Source of the DNA: an uncultured Prevotellaceae bacterium
GTDB taxonomy: Bacteria > Bacteroidota > Bacteroidia > Bacteroidales > Muribaculaceae
Assembly (NCBI GenBank): GCA_900318205.1
Contig: ONJS01000028.1
Location: forward strand, 1-34,117
Direction: 5' to 3'
Length of the DNA stretch: 34,117 nt
A model generated the notes under the pieces. That model searched no databases. It saw only the letters and a program-made list of their open reading frames with translations, and was not told the DNA's origin. Of this stretch, positions 3,755 to 11,689 are shown piece after piece. Every line of letters begins with the position of its first letter. Positions within the stretch are counted from its first letter, which is position 1. The position numbers were made by a program, and so were the translations under genes.

Positions 3755-3835
3755 ATTGTACATGAAATAGTAGCCGAATCAGCAAGCAAAGAAGTGAAGA
3801 ATAGTGGTTTTAATAAGATACCATTTGTTACAGAT

Positions 3836-6094
3836 ATGCCAAACTACGATTTTCTTATACTCCAATATAATGAGTTTGAACACTTGACACGAGATCTTCT
3901 TCAAAAGAAAGAAAAGATTTTCGTTGAAAGTTTTACGCCAGGGAAAGATGGAGGCGTGGACTTGCGTTTTGCAAAAGTTAGAGAAGAGAATACCATAGTA
4001 CAAGCAAAACGCGTTAAAGACTATACCTCGTTAAAAAGAACTTTACTAAAGGAAGTCTCCAAGGTAAAGACACTCAACCCAGAACGCTACATCATATCAA
4101 CATCAGTCGGTTTAACTCCAGAAAACAAGACAGAGATACAGACTCTTTTTAATCCCTATATACAATCTACAGAGGATATTCTTGGTAGAGATGATTTAAA
4201 CAATTTGCTTGGACAGAACCCCGATGTGGAAAAGCAATATTATAAACTGTGGATAGGTAGCACTGCTGTTCTTGAAGATATCTTGAACAAACGCATAAAT
4301 AACTGGTCTGCAATAGAGTTAGAGACCATACGTCGTGAAGTTTCTACTTACGTGATGAATAAGAGTTTTAATGATGCACTGGAAATTCTGACAAAGAATA
4401 GGTATGTGATTATTTCTGGTATACCAGGTATAGGAAAGACCACTTTGGCGCGGATGCTTGTAAACTACCTTCTGAGTGAGGGTTATGAAGAGTTTGTTAA
4501 ACTGACAGGAATTGGTGACGCAGCCCAGAAGTTGCAAAAAGGGAAAAAGCAAGTATTTTTCTTTGACGATTTCTTGGGTTCGACTTTTTTCCAGAACGAT
4601 GAAAAAGGATTTGATCAGAAGCTAGTGGCTTTCATTGAAAAGGTAAAGTATGAAACAGACAAGATTTTTATTCTCTCAACCCGTGAATATATCCTAGCGG
4701 AAGCCAAACAAACATATGATGTGTTTTCCACCAAGAACTTAGAGTTGGCAAAATGTGTATTGGATTTATCGAACTACACAGAATCAATCCGTGCAGAAAT
4801 ACTATATAACCATTTAGCTATGGCAAGATTACCATTGCCATATGTAAGAGCGTTGATAGCCAAAAGAAGTTATTTAAGAATTATCCAGCACCATAATTTC
4901 AATCCACGCATTATTGAGACATTCTTAAATTCAGAGTTATATCTGAGGGTAGAACCAGATCAGTTCGTTGCCAAGTTCATAGATTTCTTTGATCGTCCAT
5001 ACGCCGTTTGGGAATTGGCATTCAGACAGATTAAGCCGATTGCTCAATACGCTCTGCTGGTTAGGATGTCTATGGGAGACAAACCTGTGTTGCTTTCTGA
5101 TTGGTACTTGGCAACCAAGAAATTTGTACAAGGTACTGAAAAGGAATTGCATCTCACCATCAATAAACAGGTATGGAATGATGCACTGAAAATTATTGAA
5201 GGAACGTTTGTTTTTACTAAATTCCAAAAAGATGAGCACCTTGCCTGCTATCAAAGTCCTTCAGTTTTTGATTTCTTACAAGAATGGATAAAGAACTTGA
5301 GCGATATTCAAGAGTATATCATTCGTGAGTCATATTTCGCAGAGCAGCTTTATAAGGCTTTCTCAGATACAGGGTATCCAAGTTTTTTTGATTATGGTAG
5401 GGTGAAGATAAATGAGTCGGCTAAACCTGCTTTGGCGCAGGCATTTAAACGTCTTGCCTCAGAACTCCATTTTTGCTCTTTGAAGGATTATGGAACAACG
5501 CATGAAAAGGTACCGCAAGATATTACGGATTTCCTTCTGGGGTTTGAGCGTTCCTTCGGCGGGATATACAAGAGAAAACCAGATTTATTGAGAGATATTG
5601 CTTCACAAAATTTGCTGGAAGACACTAGGATACCACTATTTAAAAGGATGGATTATCTAGATAAGTTAGGTGAAGGCTCAAAACAAGAGTTAGATTTAGA
5701 ACAACTAGCCAGTGTCGTTCTTGAACAATCTGAACATTTAGATGATTTTGTGAATTCGATGGACCTGCTACTTGAAACGGAAGCAGGCTCTTTAGCGTTA
5801 AAAAGTAATGACCTTTTGAAAAAAGTGGAGGAGGCTATCGAATGGGAAATAGAAGAAGCAGACTCAGAACAAGAATGTAATCATATTAGTGATAGCTTGT
5901 CTGCATTAGTGGAGCACATACCATCATTGAATGAAGCTGCATGGCAAGGAGCTATAGATGAAGTGATATCAAGATTTCCTCGTGAAGAAGACTACGATGA
6001 GGATTTTTCACGTGACTTAAGTTCAGCTACAAATGACAAGAACCAGTATGAGGAGATGTTTACGAGTTTGCTTGAATCATCAGGAGATCTATAA
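3836..6094 (+). CDS. Mrr-type nuclease fused to a STAND-like NTPase (nSTAND3), putative defence protein
   Basis: Numbered from ATG 3836, the protein has 752 residues; a GTG at 3794 would add 14. Residues 1-120 form an Mrr-like PD-(D/E)XK domain: acidic residue in FEHLTRDLL, Asp42 in GKDGGVDLRFA, and the Gln56-Ala-Lys58 triad end in VQAKR. A P-loop NTPase follows, with Walker A GIPGIGKTT at 195-203 and Walker B QVFFFDD at about 239-245. A helical region with winged-helix-like features and a long acidic alpha-helical C-terminus complete it. In characterised relatives such as the Avs proteins, STAND NTPases sense phage proteins and trigger an attached effector; here the effector would be DNA cleavage. 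The gene is AT-rich and stands alone. Function is inferred from architecture. Confidence 0.75.
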   Translation: MPNYDFLILQYNEFEHLTRDLLQKKEKIFVESFTPGKDGGVDLRFAKVREENTIVQAKRVKDYTSLKRTLLKEVSKVKTLNPERYIISTSVGLTPENKTEIQTLFNPYIQSTEDILGRDDLNNLLGQNPDVEKQYYKLWIGSTAVLEDILNKRINNWSAIELETIRREVSTYVMNKSFNDALEILTKNRYVIISGIPGIGKTTLARMLVNYLLSEGYEEFVKLTGIGDAAQKLQKGKKQVFFFDDFLGSTFFQNDEKGFDQKLVAFIEKVKYETDKIFILSTREYILAEAKQTYDVFSTKNLELAKCVLDLSNYTESIRAEILYNHLAMARLPLPYVRALIAKRSYLRIIQHHNFNPRIIETFLNSELYLRVEPDQFVAKFIDFFDRPYAVWELAFRQIKPIAQYALLVRMSMGDKPVLLSDWYLATKKFVQGTEKELHLTINKQVWNDALKIIEGTFVFTKFQKDEHLACYQSPSVFDFLQEWIKNLSDIQEYIIRESYFAEQLYKAFSDTGYPSFFDYGRVKINESAKPALAQAFKRLASELHFCSLKDYGTTHEKVPQDITDFLLGFERSFGGIYKRKPDLLRDIASQNLLEDTRIPLFKRMDYLDKLGEGSKQELDLEQLASVVLEQSEHLDDFVNSMDLLLETEAGSLALKSNDLLKKVEEAIEWEIEEADSEQECNHISDSLSALVEHIPSLNEAAWQGAIDEVISRFPREEDYDEDFSRDLSSATNDKNQYEEMFTSLLESSGDL

Positions 6095-6561
6095 AGAGAA
6101 TGATTAGGGAACACAATTGAAATTAGAGTGTTTATTATCTCAACGCATTTAGTGTCCAGATATCATCATTGTGACCTCAAACTATTTTTTGGTTTATAAT
6201 GACCGAAGTCATTTTCAATCCAAGAAAAAATGATGCCGTTTCAGAAAGATGCTACTATTCAGAAAAAATATCCAAAAGCACAACTCGCTGAGATTTGAAT
6301 AATCAGTATGGATGAGCAGGTTGACCTAATATGAGCGATTGCAAAAATGCAACTATTAATAATCAATAAAATCATATTTAAAATCGGTAAAAGCCCTGCT
6401 TATTCGTTTTTTGTCAAAATTTGAATGTTCGCATTTCAAAAATTACAAAATTTCTTCAATCAGCCTAACTTATAACCCTGCACAGTTGCATTATATAGGC
6501 AAAATATGCTTAAAATACATGCAAAACAAAAGTTCCATCCCAAACTCTCAATAAAAAATAG
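6095..6561. other. AT-rich intergenic stretch
   Basis: No convincing gene. A 30-codon frame at 6199-6291 (MTEVIFNPRKND...) is too short to call and matches nothing I know. An imperfect inverted repeat near 6420-6440 (TTTGAATG / CATTTCAAA) could be a hairpin or operator. The stretch separates the STAND gene from the promoter of the next operon. Confidence 0.5.
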
Positions 6562-6569
6562 TACCTTTG
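6562..6569 (+). promoter_or_regulatory. Bacteroidetes -7 box (TACCTTTG) deciding the start at 6599
   Basis: TACCTTTG followed by C fits the TAnnTTTG consensus. It lies 29 bases before the ATG at 6599 and inside the longer frame that opens at 6506. This argues that translation starts at 6599, because the first 31 codons of the longer frame would not be transcribed. A good -33 element is not visible. Confidence 0.6.
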
Positions 6570-6598
6570 CAAGCAAATATTCACATCGCGAATTAAAA

Positions 6599-7957
6599 AT
6601 GGAATTGAATAGTCTGATATCAGAATGTACCGCTTACGATTTCAAGTTGATGCTTGAAGAAAATAGACCTAAAAGTTGGCTGAAGAGTGTAAGCGCTTTT
6701 GCCAATGGCTTGGGTGGTTCGCTTTTCTTCGGTATAGATAACGATGGTGTTGTCAAAGGTCTTGACGATGTGCAACATGTTTGCGAGACTATCAGTAGCA
6801 GGATTCGTGACTATATGGATCCTCTGCCAGAGGTGGAGATGATCCCCCATGATATAGATGGTTTACATATCTTGCAACTCAAAGTCAACGCAGGACATTA
6901 TACACCATATTACTACGTTGGAGATGGTCTGCGTATTGCCTTTGTTCGTATCGGTGATGAAAGTATTCCTGCCACAGCAGAACAGATGGTTCGCTTGGTA
7001 CTGAAAGGTTCCAACAAAACTTTTGATTCTCTTCATACTGATTATCAAGCAGAGGACTATTCCTTTACGATATTAGCGAACTCGTTCAAAGACCGCACCA
7101 AACAAGAATGGGACAAGAAATACCTTTTGTCTTTTGGCCTTGTTACTGGTACAGGATGTCTTACGAATGCTGGTGCTCTGTTTGCTGACGACTGTCCACT
7201 CTGGCAATCTCGTTTGTATTGTACACGATGGGATGGAAAGGAAAAGGGTGATGCCATCAATGATGCAGAGTTTACAGGAAATGTCCTCATGCTGCTTCGA
7301 GAATCCATGAACTTTGTGAAATCTAACACCAAGAGAGGATGGGAAAAATTGCCTGATGGGCGTAAGAACAAACCCGAATATGCAGAACGTGCCGTTCTTG
7401 AAGCAATGGTAAATCACTTCATTCATCGAGACTATACGGTAATGGGCGGTGAAGTGCATCTTGACATTTATGAAGATCGTCTCATAGTTACGTCACCTGG
7501 TGGAATGTACAATGGTATGCTGATTCAGGACTTAGATATCGCTGACGTTTCTTCTGAAAGGCGTAATCCAATACTTGCGAATGTGATGGCTCAGCTTGAC
7601 TATATGGAAAAGCGAGGCAGTGGACTCACACGCATCTACAACGAGACCAAAGCTTTGGATGGATATCGGGATGAACTGAAGCCAGTTTTCAAATCCACTC
7701 CGACTCAATTTCAGACTATCATCTTTGCCTCCATCGATATGACAGATGTCGGAGACGTGTCGGAGACGAAACTTACTGAGCGTCAACGGAAAATCCTCGA
7801 TCTCATCAAAGAGTCTCCGACAATAAGTGGCCGGCAGATGTCGGAGATATTGTCGGTGAGCCAACGCACCATTGAACGTGACCTTTCTAATTTGAAAGAA
7901 CTTGGTGTTTTAAAACGCGAAGGTAAGGATAATGATGGGGTCTGGGTAATAAATTAG
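6599..7957 (+). CDS. AlbA_2/Schlafen-type ATP-binding protein with C-terminal HTH (COG2865-like)
   Basis: 452 residues from ATG 6599. The N-terminal AlbA_2 domain (residues 1 to about 130) has the family block VSAFANGLGGSLFFGIDNDG. The middle carries AVLEAMVNHFIHRDY at about 263-277 and RRNPILANVM...EKRGSGL from about 320, typical of the C-terminal HATPase_c_4 part of COG2865 regulators. Residues 390-452 form a DeoR/LexA-like winged helix (LTERQRKILDLI, SVSQRTIERDLSNL). Such proteins are usually annotated as ATP-binding transcriptional regulators. The gene lies 33 bases upstream of the GHKL/nuclease gene on the same strand behind one promoter, so it may regulate or sense for that operon. An upstream in-frame ATG at 6506 is less likely because the promoter lies downstream of it. 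Confidence 0.85.
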   Translation: MELNSLISECTAYDFKLMLEENRPKSWLKSVSAFANGLGGSLFFGIDNDGVVKGLDDVQHVCETISSRIRDYMDPLPEVEMIPHDIDGLHILQLKVNAGHYTPYYYVGDGLRIAFVRIGDESIPATAEQMVRLVLKGSNKTFDSLHTDYQAEDYSFTILANSFKDRTKQEWDKKYLLSFGLVTGTGCLTNAGALFADDCPLWQSRLYCTRWDGKEKGDAINDAEFTGNVLMLLRESMNFVKSNTKRGWEKLPDGRKNKPEYAERAVLEAMVNHFIHRDYTVMGGEVHLDIYEDRLIVTSPGGMYNGMLIQDLDIADVSSERRNPILANVMAQLDYMEKRGSGLTRIYNETKALDGYRDELKPVFKSTPTQFQTIIFASIDMTDVGDVSETKLTERQRKILDLIKESPTISGRQMSEILSVSQRTIERDLSNLKELGVLKREGKDNDGVWVIN

Positions 7958-7990
7958 CACGTAAAATAAGATTATTTAAAAAGAGTTTTT

Positions 7991-10048
7991 ATGCAAAACC
8001 AACAATTGGGAGCTAGTTTACGAGGAAGGCTAAGAAATACTGATCTACCAGTTTCAAAGTGTTTATACCCTCTTTTCGAAGCAGTTGTTAATGCAATATA
8101 TGCAATTGATGATCGTGTTAACTCCGATAAAGCATTTGCTATATCTGAAGGAATGATACGTGTGTCCCTAAATCGAGCAGCTAATAGTGATTTGTTTGGT
8201 GGAAAGGCTGAGATTTTATCTATCATGATTGAAGATAACGGCATTGGTTTCAACGATGAAAACTATGATTCGTTTTGTGAGTTAGATACTATGTATCACG
8301 CATCAAAAGGTTGTAAAGGCATTGGTAGATTATTGTGGCTGAAAAGTTTTTCGTCTGTTGAAATTGATAGTTGTTATATGGACAATGAAGGCGAAAAGAA
8401 AAGTAGACATTTCTCTTTTACCCCTAGTGGCATAATGACTCTTCCAAATGTTGATGTTGAGAACAGAGATGTAGGCACAAAGGTTATCCTAAGAGGTATT
8501 TCTAATGCATATAAAGCCGCTATCAGCAAACTAGGGCAGGAAACAATAGCTAAATCACTATTTGAACATTGCCTTTGGTTCTTTTTGAGAGATGGTTCAA
8601 GTCCAGACATAAGAATTATAGATGGGACAGATCCAGCAACGAATCTCAATGAAATATACGATAGCTATCTCTATAGCGACCAATCTAATAGTACAAACTT
8701 TACTATTGGTGAAGCAACATTTAATGTATTGCATATAAGATTGCAGCGTTCTGAAAGTAATAACTTAATTTCTTACTGTGCCGGCAACAGAATTGTGAAG
8801 GATGAAAAGATTAAGAATATTGCAGGTTTATATGATTCTGCGTTGGAGGCTTCTGATGGTTCTTTCTATTATAAGTGCTTTGTGACCTCTCCGTATTTTG
8901 ATGAACATGTCTCTCCTGATCGCTTTGCATTTCTCATTCCAGAACAACGAGAAAATGAGAATCAGACAGAGGTAATAGAGCAAGTATATTTCGCTGATGT
9001 TAGAGATTATGTTTTGAATCAGGTAAAAGATTTCTTAAACCCATACCTTGAGGATAATAAATCTGCTGGGAGAGAGAGGCTTACTCAGTTTGTAGACGAA
9101 AAAGCCCCATACTATAAACCCCTATTGACAAGTCTTGGTGAAGATGAGAAGGTAATTAATCCTAAAGCTAACGACAAGTCTATTGATTCTTATTTACATA
9201 CAAAACTTGTTGAGAAAGAACATAAGCTCATAGAAGAAGGTCATGATGTTCTGAAAATGAGAACTGGCGAAACGGATGAAGAATTTAATCTGAGAGTTGA
9301 AAAGTATTTTGATAATGCTCAGCAATTAAAGCAGACTGATCTTGCGAGATATGTTCTACATCGTAAGTACATTTTACAATTACTGGAGGAAGCTCTACAA
9401 CCAGATAAAGATGGTAATTATTCTAGAGAAGAAAAAGTACATGAGATTATTATGCCAATGAGATCCACAAGTGATGATGCCAAATTCAACGATAATAACC
9501 TGTGGATTATTGATGAGCGGTTGGTATTCCATCATTATTTGGCATCAGACAAGACTTTCAAATCAATGGAAGTCACAGATTGTGAATCTGGCAGAAGACC
9601 AGATGTTCTATTGGAAAATATCTATGATAATCCATTGTTTGTGACAGAGAAAACCAACCCTCCTTATGCTACTCTAAGAATCATTGAGTTTAAGAGACCT
9701 ATGAGAGATAATATTGAAGCTGAAGATAGTACAAAAAATCCTATAGATCAATGTATAGATTACGTGATAAAAATAAGAAATGGAAAATCTGTCACTAAGA
9801 ATGGTAGGCCAATTACAATCTCAAATGATATTCCTGCATATTGTTATATAATATGTGACCTAACATCTTCAATGCAAGCTGTATGTGATAAGCATGACCT
9901 TAGAAGAACATACGATGGCCTGGGATATTTTGGATATAAAACTCAATTGCAGATATATTTTGAAGTTATTTCTTTTGACCAACTACTTAATTCAGCAAAT
10001 GAACGCAATGCTGCGTTTTTTAACAGACTTGGTTTATCTCACAATTAA
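7991..10048 (+). CDS. GHKL ATPase with C-terminal PD-(D/E)XK-like nuclease motif, putative defence effector
   Basis: 685 residues. The N-terminus is a GHKL (Hsp90/MutL/MORC-type) ATPase: N-box FEAVVNAIYAIDD with Glu30/Asn34, G1 box EDNGIGF with Asp82, and G2 box GCKGIGR at 107-113. A transducer-like region follows to about residue 330, then a charged helical linker (DEEFNLRVEKYFDNAQQLKQ). Near the C-terminus I see RPDVLL (Asp538), RIIEFKRP (Glu566-Phe-Lys568) and a helix with Gln587 in IDQCIDYV. The spacing and order fit a PD-(D/E)XK nuclease core. An ATP-driven clamp joined to a nuclease would fit a DNA- or phage-sensing cutter. The next gene starts 15 bases later. The ATPase call is firm, the nuclease is probable, and the defence role is inferred. 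Confidence 0.8.
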   Translation: MQNQQLGASLRGRLRNTDLPVSKCLYPLFEAVVNAIYAIDDRVNSDKAFAISEGMIRVSLNRAANSDLFGGKAEILSIMIEDNGIGFNDENYDSFCELDTMYHASKGCKGIGRLLWLKSFSSVEIDSCYMDNEGEKKSRHFSFTPSGIMTLPNVDVENRDVGTKVILRGISNAYKAAISKLGQETIAKSLFEHCLWFFLRDGSSPDIRIIDGTDPATNLNEIYDSYLYSDQSNSTNFTIGEATFNVLHIRLQRSESNNLISYCAGNRIVKDEKIKNIAGLYDSALEASDGSFYYKCFVTSPYFDEHVSPDRFAFLIPEQRENENQTEVIEQVYFADVRDYVLNQVKDFLNPYLEDNKSAGRERLTQFVDEKAPYYKPLLTSLGEDEKVINPKANDKSIDSYLHTKLVEKEHKLIEEGHDVLKMRTGETDEEFNLRVEKYFDNAQQLKQTDLARYVLHRKYILQLLEEALQPDKDGNYSREEKVHEIIMPMRSTSDDAKFNDNNLWIIDERLVFHHYLASDKTFKSMEVTDCESGRRPDVLLENIYDNPLFVTEKTNPPYATLRIIEFKRPMRDNIEAEDSTKNPIDQCIDYVIKIRNGKSVTKNGRPITISNDIPAYCYIICDLTSSMQAVCDKHDLRRTYDGLGYFGYKTQLQIYFEVISFDQLLNSANERNAAFFNRLGLSHN

Positions 10049-10063
10049 TATTTCGAAAGTTAT

Positions 10064-11167
10064 ATGATAGAAGTCCCTATAAAATATGCTTTTCCTTTGT
10101 TTACCAAACACAATTCTACGGATTATCTAATAAAACATGAACAAATCCGAGTCTCTGATCTTTGGGCTTTTTGGAAATATATTATTGGGCGATACGTGAA
10201 GAAATATTCTGGAGAAAAAGATTTCTTGTTGACATTAATTGAACAAGCAAGATACTTTTACGAAGCAGCAGAGAATGCGCCTATAAAATCTCAACCGTTA
10301 TTGTATTATTACTCCTTCTTAAACTTAGTGAAAGTAGTAATAAATGTAAACGCACTTTCAACGTATGGAACAAGTTTTACATATTATCATGGAGTTGATT
10401 CTTGTGGAATAAAAAAGAAAGACAAATTGCAGGACTTATATGTTGAGATTAAAAGTTTATTACTGCCCGCAGGAGTTACGCCTCGCCCTGGGAAATTGCC
10501 TGATTTATCTGTAGCTTATACTTTTATGACACAAATGGGTGATTCTGTTCCTTGTCCACCTCCATATAAACTGAATATAGTCAATATGCTAAGGGCCTGC
10601 GTTGGAATCCATCGTACCTATAGTGAGACCAATAATGAGAAGGAAATTTACATTAGGTTGGGAAATCCCCAATTATTCAGAGAAGGCAAGACTCTCCGTT
10701 GTAAATATGAAATAATGGAATGTGATTCTGTTATAGCTTCACAGTTAGTAACAGTCGGATATAATATTGTACAAGAAACAGACACGGATGGAATAACAAG
10801 TTACTATTGGATTGAAGAAATAATAATGATGGCATACAAAGAAACGAAATTAGATTACTACATGCTAGCTAAGAAATTAAGAGATAAGGGTATATGGTAT
10901 TATACTGATGGTAGTTGTTATCGTACGTTTATTTCGACATCACCTTTACACATCTCAACAGAATCCATCATCTACAATCTAATGTTCTTCTTTGGGTCTA
11001 TTACTCGTTATCACCCTTACATGTTTGATAAACTTTTAACAGAACAGCAGATGTGGCTGATTAGTGAATTTTTGAAAACTCAACCCAAACAATTTTTGTA
11101 TGCAGTTACATCAAGAACAATAGAAAGCGCCGTTTTGAAACCAAATACGGCGAATATCATTTTCTAA
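10064..11167 (+). CDS. YaaC-like protein, partner of the GHKL/nuclease
   Basis: 367 residues with no signal peptide. The N-terminal part has the YaaC-like pattern: an aromatic WAFWKYIIGRYV stretch, then LIEQARYFYEAAENAPIKSQ and PLLYYYSFLNLVKVVI, which I associate with PF14175. The C-terminal part is helical with SESIIYNLMFFFGSITRYHP-like content (HISTESIIYNLMFFFGSITR) and LTEQQMWLISEF. The biochemical role of YaaC proteins is not established as far as I know. It begins 15 bases after the upstream stop and is the last gene of the operon, so it probably works with the GHKL/nuclease protein, either as a regulator or as a second subunit. Confidence 0.7.
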   Translation: MIEVPIKYAFPLFTKHNSTDYLIKHEQIRVSDLWAFWKYIIGRYVKKYSGEKDFLLTLIEQARYFYEAAENAPIKSQPLLYYYSFLNLVKVVINVNALSTYGTSFTYYHGVDSCGIKKKDKLQDLYVEIKSLLLPAGVTPRPGKLPDLSVAYTFMTQMGDSVPCPPPYKLNIVNMLRACVGIHRTYSETNNEKEIYIRLGNPQLFREGKTLRCKYEIMECDSVIASQLVTVGYNIVQETDTDGITSYYWIEEIIMMAYKETKLDYYMLAKKLRDKGIWYYTDGSCYRTFISTSPLHISTESIIYNLMFFFGSITRYHPYMFDKLLTEQQMWLISEFLKTQPKQFLYAVTSRTIESAVLKPNTANIIF

Positions 11168-11298
11168 TGAACTATACAACAGCTATTAATGTACATATAA
11201 CAAATAAGCAGAATTGAAAATCGTTTATAAGAGTTAAATACGTTAAATTTTGATCATTTCTAATCTCTATCGAACTCACGTCATCACTTTTCTACCGT

Positions 11299-11317: not shown

Positions 11318-11689
11318 TATAAAGCATTTTACAAATACGGAAATTGCCCTGCACTAACCCAAATCAAGTGTCAGGCAGTAACACCACCATCAATTAGTCT
11401 CGCTTCCACTTTTCAGAACTATAATGCCACGCTTGAAGTGCCGGCAGTATCAGTAAACGCCTATCAAAACCATAGCATTTGGGGCAAATTCAGTAACATT
11501 CAGGCGTATGAAACTGATTTGGGTGACATGAATGGTGACGGCAAGGTGAACATCAGTGACGTGACGATCTTAATTGAACTGCTGCTATCGGGTGGAACTA
11601 CCGAGAGTGCCTGTGACGTGAACGGTGACGGCAGGGTCAACATCACTGATGTGACAATTCTCATTGACTTGTTGCTGAACATGTACTAA
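11318..11689 (+). pseudogene. C-terminal remnant of a BspA-like dockerin surface protein
   Basis: The frame is open from 11318 but has no ATG at a sensible place; a GTG at 11438 would give 83 residues. It reads IKCQAVTPPSISLASTFQNY, then ATLEVPAVSVNAYQNHSIWG and KFSNIQAYE, which is the usual end of the LRR region in BspA-type proteins. The two intact genes at 15253 and 17779 end in a similar way. Two dockerin-like EF-hand repeats follow (DMNGDGKVNISDVTILIELL and DVNGDGRVNITDVTILIDLL). Signal peptide and LRR body are absent. I read this as the stump left by a large deletion. Confidence 0.7.

Follow-up and report, generated by a model that had tools for sequence, protein, structure and literature searches.

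The closest described relatives of the gene considered here are single proteins in which a GHKL ATPase precedes a C-terminal nuclease. As set out in the portions of Iyer 2008 (PMC2292703) drawn on here, paraMORC3 proteins combine GHKL and S5 domains with a C-terminal restriction endonuclease (RE)-fold domain carrying an E-D-ExK signature, and they are prevalent but sporadic in proteobacteria and bacteroidetes, where they occur with restriction-modification (RM) genes or, in a subset, standalone; for the standalone forms those authors considered a repair or maintenance role. The portions of Adams 2025 (PMC12137116) used here describe VcSduA of the Vibrio cholerae WASA lineage as a GHKL and PD-(D/E)xK protein that protects against phages, a defence lost in the E27A and K557A mutants, and class it as a type I-D Shedu with the domain organisation previously named paraMORC3; its growth curves, by the authors' account, agree with direct restriction and survival of the host. 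Against this background we analysed a 34,117-nt stretch of DNA (the window; contig ONJS01000028.1, assembly GCA_900318205.1) from an uncultured Prevotellaceae bacterium placed by GTDB in the Muribaculaceae, and in it three consecutive plus-strand genes, which encode an AlbA_2/helix-turn-helix (HTH) protein of 452 amino acids (aa) (gene 1), a GHKL protein of 685 aa (gene 2) and a YaaC-family protein of 367 aa (gene 3). Gene 2, in our view, probably encodes an anti-phage nuclease that is complete in one protein and belongs to the GHKL-Shedu (paraMORC3/VcSduA) kind, with gene 1 as its likely regulator and YaaC as a passenger. A first-pass annotation made from the letters of the window had proposed the three genes together as a candidate new defence system; the kind to which gene 2 appears to belong is already in print, both as paraMORC3 and as the GHKL-Shedu VcSduA.

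In a single-sequence Pfam scan gene 2 matched only HATPase_c (E=0.049), with no nuclease match, and both of its domains become clear through homologues, by way of alignments, profiles and a structure model. Two alignments of the family were examined, A1 with 14 rows and A2 with 29. All 14 members of A1 matched HATPase_c at E<=1 (best 2.4e-8), and the GHKL residues E30, N34, D82, G84, G86, G107, G110 and G112 as well as the C-terminal residues E480, H484, D538, E566 and K568 are invariant in both alignments (14/14 and 29/29); the Glu30, Glu566 and Lys568 singled out in the first-pass annotation thus never vary. The AlphaFold2 model of gene 2 (pLDDT 85.5, pTM 0.64) contains an alpha/beta part after the GHKL domain, and the best 50 of 944 fold matches retrieved from the PDB with Foldseek were Hsp90-family and gyrase B chains (E 1.7e-12 to 3.1e-10), spanning 381-477 columns in tables that give no residue ranges. 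To place the nuclease, an SduA_C profile built from a seed (L089) and its relatives in loci of the phylum was compared by hhalign with the C-terminal part of the gene 2 family (41 rows). The two aligned over 139 columns, which include the RPD...EFKRP...Q..Y line, at 95.9% probability and E 5.6e-9. The reversed profile scored 0.1%, and all 20 column shuffles and six of seven other proteins scored no more than 0.6%; the seventh, the N-terminus of type I HsdR, reached 58%, which implies that part of the profile signal is common to the PD-(D/E)XK superfamily. Set against mostly low controls, the match places the gene 2 nuclease, by profile comparison, as a probable and diverged Shedu relative inside that superfamily. 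Homologue alignments, HATPase_c matches and profile comparison together support the earlier description of gene 2, in which a GHKL ATPase and a PD-(D/E)XK nuclease are joined in one protein.

Set beside classical Shedu SduA (PF14082), gene 2 has a nuclease core related by profile comparison, carries a GHKL domain instead of the other N-terminal domains and lies outside the reach of the curated Pfam model. With VcSduA it has in common an N-terminal GHKL ATPase and a C-terminal PD-(D/E)XK nuclease within a single protein, whereas host and neighbouring genes are unlike those of VcSduA. By residue positions, Glu30 and Lys568 appear equivalent to E27 and K557 of VcSduA. The exact E27/K557 numbering recurs in two of the 29 rows of A2 (L056, L059), members on Vibrio fluvialis and Salinivibrio plasmids have E27 and K556, and the Glu-Lys spacing is 501-558 in the gene 2 family and 530 in VcSduA. 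The likeness to paraMORC3, judged from the published description and not from the listed sequences, lies in the GHKL domain, in a C-terminal RE-fold with E480, D538 and E566-x-K568, where E480 presumably corresponds to the first E of the signature, and in a patchy spread; family members occur with RM genes or standalone, and also on plasmids of Actinomycetota and Nitrospirota. Gene 2 would thus extend a kind of phage defence shown experimentally to the genome of the window and to a Bacteroidaceae relative (L015).

Homologues of gene 2 were found in three of 101 near relatives and 10 of 395 genomes of the phylum, the genome of the window included, and in the order a profile search matched 21 of 393 genomes, with 12 matches nearly full length (own genome again included). 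On mobile DNA, homologues turned up in 59 of 72,556 plasmid records, in a single phage record out of 50,697 and at 33 loci of viral contigs. Six of ten hand-picked plasmid or phage regions that we inspected have annotated defence-type genes near the gene 2 homologue: type I RM in two regions, one of them also with a Shedu gene, and, region by region, SAVED with ThiF/Mov34, SIR2 with XamI RM and SAVED, an Abi protein, and LA2681 HEPN. In a further locus (L016) gene 2 is flanked by type I RM genes, recognised by eye. A comparison with PADLOC at E<=1e-15 covered 11 matched pairs, in which open reading frames (ORFs) within ~6 kb of gene 2 were set against displaced stretches of the same genomes; 106 ORFs near gene 2 relatives matched 158 PADLOC families, compared with 4 for 99 control ORFs, where the figures count families of overlapping models and not proteins. 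The test used 106 of 116 neighbour ORFs and 99 of 157 control ORFs, the controls having been hand-trimmed to the middles of their stretches; from 13 control stretches the pairs L027/L142 and L130/L143 were dropped as short, and the gene 2 of one locus (L019) is split in two frames. The expectation that relatives of gene 2 lie amid defence genes is upheld by this comparison.

The one phage homologue, in vB_RanS_PJN03 (ON245412.1 40025-42049; L097:2485-4509), is full-length (26.6% identity, 98% covered), keeps the key residues and adjoins an integrase; its annotation as N-acetylmuramoyl-L-alanine amidase looks wrong. A separate group of GHKL proteins of 610-619 aa (L046-L050, L087, L088) aligns with gene 2 chiefly over the N-terminal part; in the six members scanned, all but L048, the C-terminal part gave no Pfam match above cut-off.

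Several observations weigh against assigning gene 2 to this kind. Scans of gene 2 against PADLOC and NCBIfam returned no match, and none of the 14 members of A1 matched Pfam SduA_C at E<=1, whereas VcSduA is reported, in the portions of its description used here, to match DUF4263 (SduA_C). The nuclease fold of gene 2 is without a match to a solved structure: no nuclease stood among the best 50 of 944 or the best 50 of 661 Foldseek matches, a profile search of the PDB with the gene 2 family gave two weak histidine-kinase matches only, and a single-sequence search for solved relatives gave none. The link to VcSduA is one that we strongly infer from domain order and residue numbers, and these numbers depend on the called start codons. 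VcSduA could also be nearer to another type of protein. When 198 genomes of the phylum were searched for GHKL proteins matching SduA_C, ORFs matching SduA_C occurred at 17 places in 13 genomes, and one of them (L111) has a GHKL domain, recognised by eye, with E29 and K507 at a distance of 478, and, with relatives on plasmids, is of a different type from gene 2; the GHKL motif pattern would miss L111, and the remaining SduA_C ORFs (226-485 aa) were checked by that pattern alone. Finally, four of the ten inspected regions (Rhodococcus, Sphingomonas, phage, Agrobacterium) held no clear annotated defence system. Copies of this sort, such as that on the Rhodococcus plasmid, would suit a repair or maintenance factor riding on mobile DNA, a role that we consider improbable for gene 2 given the contrast in PADLOC families (158 near relatives, 4 in the controls), the patchy presence in 10 of 395 genomes of the phylum and the phage protection described for VcSduA (PMC12137116, in the portions cited above). 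The branch to which gene 2 belongs escaped recognition here by Pfam, by NCBIfam and by PADLOC (2023), apparently through drift of its nuclease beyond the Shedu signature, and a family model made from the present rows would detect the branch.

The layout of the locus is as the first-pass annotation had described it. ORF coordinates and base composition bear out three genes on one strand, separated by 33 and 15 bases, in an AT-rich stretch next to a STAND-nuclease gene; the GC content is 43% for gene 1, 35% for gene 2, 34% for gene 3 and 38% for the STAND gene, compared with 54% for positions 12000-34117 (Table 1).

Table 1. Features of the locus, with positions in the window.
Feature	Position	Strand	Remarks
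Mrr_cat-nSTAND3 gene	3794..6094	+	PADLOC candidate family PDC-S73, 1.4e-134; taken as a separate system
TACCTTTG, presumed -7 box	6562..6569	+	29 bases upstream of the ATG at 6599
Gene 1: SLFN_AlbA_2, HATPase_c_4 (RecG C-terminal) and HTH	6599..7957	+	Pfam scan
Gene 2: GHKL ATPase, helical middle, PD-(D/E)XK nuclease	7991..10048	+	Probably of the paraMORC3 / GHKL-Shedu (VcSduA) kind
Gene 2, residues 1-330: GHKL, then alpha/beta part (presumably S5-like)	7991..8980	+	Glu30 codon 8078-8080
Gene 2, residues 334-470: middle region, mostly helical	8990..9400	+	AlphaFold2 model
Gene 2, residues 480-685: Shedu-like PD-(D/E)XK nuclease	9428..10045	+	E566 codon 9686-9688, K568 codon 9692-9694
Gene 3: YaaC family (PF14175)	10064..11167	+	Pfam 1.7e-31; no co-occurrence with gene 2 elsewhere

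Genes packed so closely on one strand invite the idea of a new system spanning the operon, in which the AlbA_2/HTH protein would sense or repress, the GHKL nuclease cut and YaaC assist. Also in its favour, TACCTTTG at 6562, which we take to be a Bacteroides-type -7 box, is the sole TAnnTTTG on the plus strand within 6101-11200, leaving no second copy inside the three genes. The motif is present where the first-pass annotation placed it; as evidence for a promoter it is weak, because TAnnTTTG occurs 13 times on the plus strand of the window and the region expected to hold a -33 box (6521-6562) contains no TTG or TTT. Comparison across genomes did not bear out the proposed system. The linkage count covered 59 other gene-2 loci, among them two pairs from one genome each (L019 and L022; L021 and L024), and 46 of the 59 are flanked on each side by 1200 bases or more; fewer than 1200 bases are available downstream of gene 2 in nine loci (two with none) and upstream in four, and absences there say little. 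YaaC was found at none of the 59, and an AlbA_2 protein like that of gene 1 at five (L015, L127, L021, L125, L126). The sole locus with gene 1 directly adjoining gene 2 is L015, a metagenome-assembled Bacteroidaceae genome from horse faeces, where only the HTH (C-terminal) end of gene 1 lies on the contig and gene 2 is 84% identical; this adjacency speaks for a unit of some kind, but the DNA similarity, which starts at the gene 1 end, stops at the stop codon of gene 2, and the next 8 kb contain no YaaC. By the Pfam model YaaC is present in two of the 393 genomes of the order, own included, and the other (G665, at G665:C1:4599332-4600177; L145) is not among the 21 with gene 2. On plasmids, the homologue nearest to gene 1 (43% identity) is divided over two ORFs, and the 13.5 kb read there hold no gene 2 and no YaaC. 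As the three families proved to be without conserved linkage, the three-gene unit is unsupported; we rejected it and regard such a system as very unlikely.

A smaller unit, in which genes 1 and 2 form a two-gene GHKL-Shedu variant with an AlbA_2/HTH regulator and YaaC is a passenger, is compatible with gene 2 as a single-protein nuclease, and we hold it as a tentative possibility. The two genes are adjacent in both the window and L015, and in L127, L021 and L125 an AlbA_2 protein precedes gene 2 on its own strand, at ~0.5, 0.7 and 4.7 kb respectively, with one intervening ORF in L127. Of these proteins, that of L127 ends in Fic-like_C, that of L125 shows no more than a FaeA-like match at cut-off, and that of L021 has no HTH match. 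The full set of AlbA_2, HATPase_c_4 and HTH is found only in L126, where the protein is encoded on the opposite strand, 5.6 kb off, and a gene-1-like protein is missing from the available stretch at 54 of the 59 loci. Control stretches gave no gene-1-like match in 201 kb; since the gene-2 loci held 5 in 890 kb, ~1 would be expected in the controls, so that enrichment near gene 2 is unproven, and a recurrent linkage of genes 1 and 2 is at best weak.

Gene 1 itself matches SLFN_AlbA_2 (6e-19), HTH_11 (1.4e-9) and HATPase_c_4/RecG C-terminal (7.8e-24); the AlbA_2 and HTH domains had been correctly assigned at first pass, which left the RecG C-terminal domain unnamed. Besides its ATG at 6599 the gene has an alternative in-frame ATG at 6506. 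A regulatory role is plausible for an AlbA_2/HTH protein, and gene 1 is likely to be the transcription regulator of the cassette. No paper connecting Schlafen/AlbA with phage defense was found in the open-access literature searched.

From these comparisons we infer that gene 2 itself defends, that it goes through a clamp cycle with DNA as its substrate, and what parts genes 1 and 3 play. In the mechanism we envisage, the gene 2 protein would dimerise via its GHKL domain, and ATP binding would shut the dimer as a clamp around invading DNA. ATP turnover, requiring Glu30, would then govern the C-terminal PD-(D/E)XK domain (E480, D538, E566, K568), which would cleave the DNA of the phage and leave the host alive. 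Gene 1, with its AlbA_2, RecG-C-like and HTH domains, would regulate transcription of the cassette, and the most likely role of YaaC is that of an exchangeable passenger on their shared transcript. An extended and regulated GHKL-Shedu is unlikely in our estimation; there, gene 1 would sense infection and release expression, the clamp-nuclease would cut, and YaaC would be a second effector arm and represent an uncharacterised defence family, one that on P1-like phage-plasmids pairs with a nucleoside 2-deoxyribosyltransferase-like protein.

Gene 3 matches the Pfam model of YaaC above its threshold (110.2 bits, cut-off 27), and a single-sequence search recovered YaaC from its own genome alone among the 393. 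A structure model built from seven sequences reached a pLDDT of 51.2. We had considered YaaC as a HEPN protein; the portions of the HEPN survey PMC3710099 used here contain 0 mentions of it, and among the titles listed by a search of open-access literature for YaaC with phage defence none was relevant. Among plasmid records 84 carry a YaaC homologue, and E. coli accounts for 70 of these. In L118/L119:5866-7415 and L122:5791-7395, the gene directly after YaaC, which overlaps it by 1 base or starts after a gap of 12, is nucleoside 2-deoxyribosyltransferase-like. Its matches to PF05014 (E 1.9e-4 for L118, 4.7e-6 for L122) both fall short of the curated cut-off, and with YaaC it forms a possible two-gene cassette; the layout of L118 is that of an IncY, P1-like E. 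coli plasmid (L116). Elsewhere (L123:2212-8705) a YaaC homologue sits in a defence-like setting between a protein that weakly matches NB-ARC and TPR and a GmrSD_N protein.

The STAND gene upstream of gene 2 is a member of PDC-S73 and a gene separate from gene 2. An nSTAND3-Mrr gene stands beside a member of the gene 2 family in two genomes, upstream in the window and downstream in L020 (L020:9801-12092), the only one of the 59 other gene-2 loci with a STAND protein; among the matches listed for the pooled neighbours, which include L020, there is one PDC-S73 match. Two further ORFs mark the same AT-rich stretch. Positions 765-1172 encode an NTF2-fold immunity protein (PF15631, 3.6e-16), possibly a polymorphic-toxin immunity gene, and a small ORF at 11438-11689 with a dockerin type I domain (3.5e-15) lies directly past YaaC, at the edge of the stretch.

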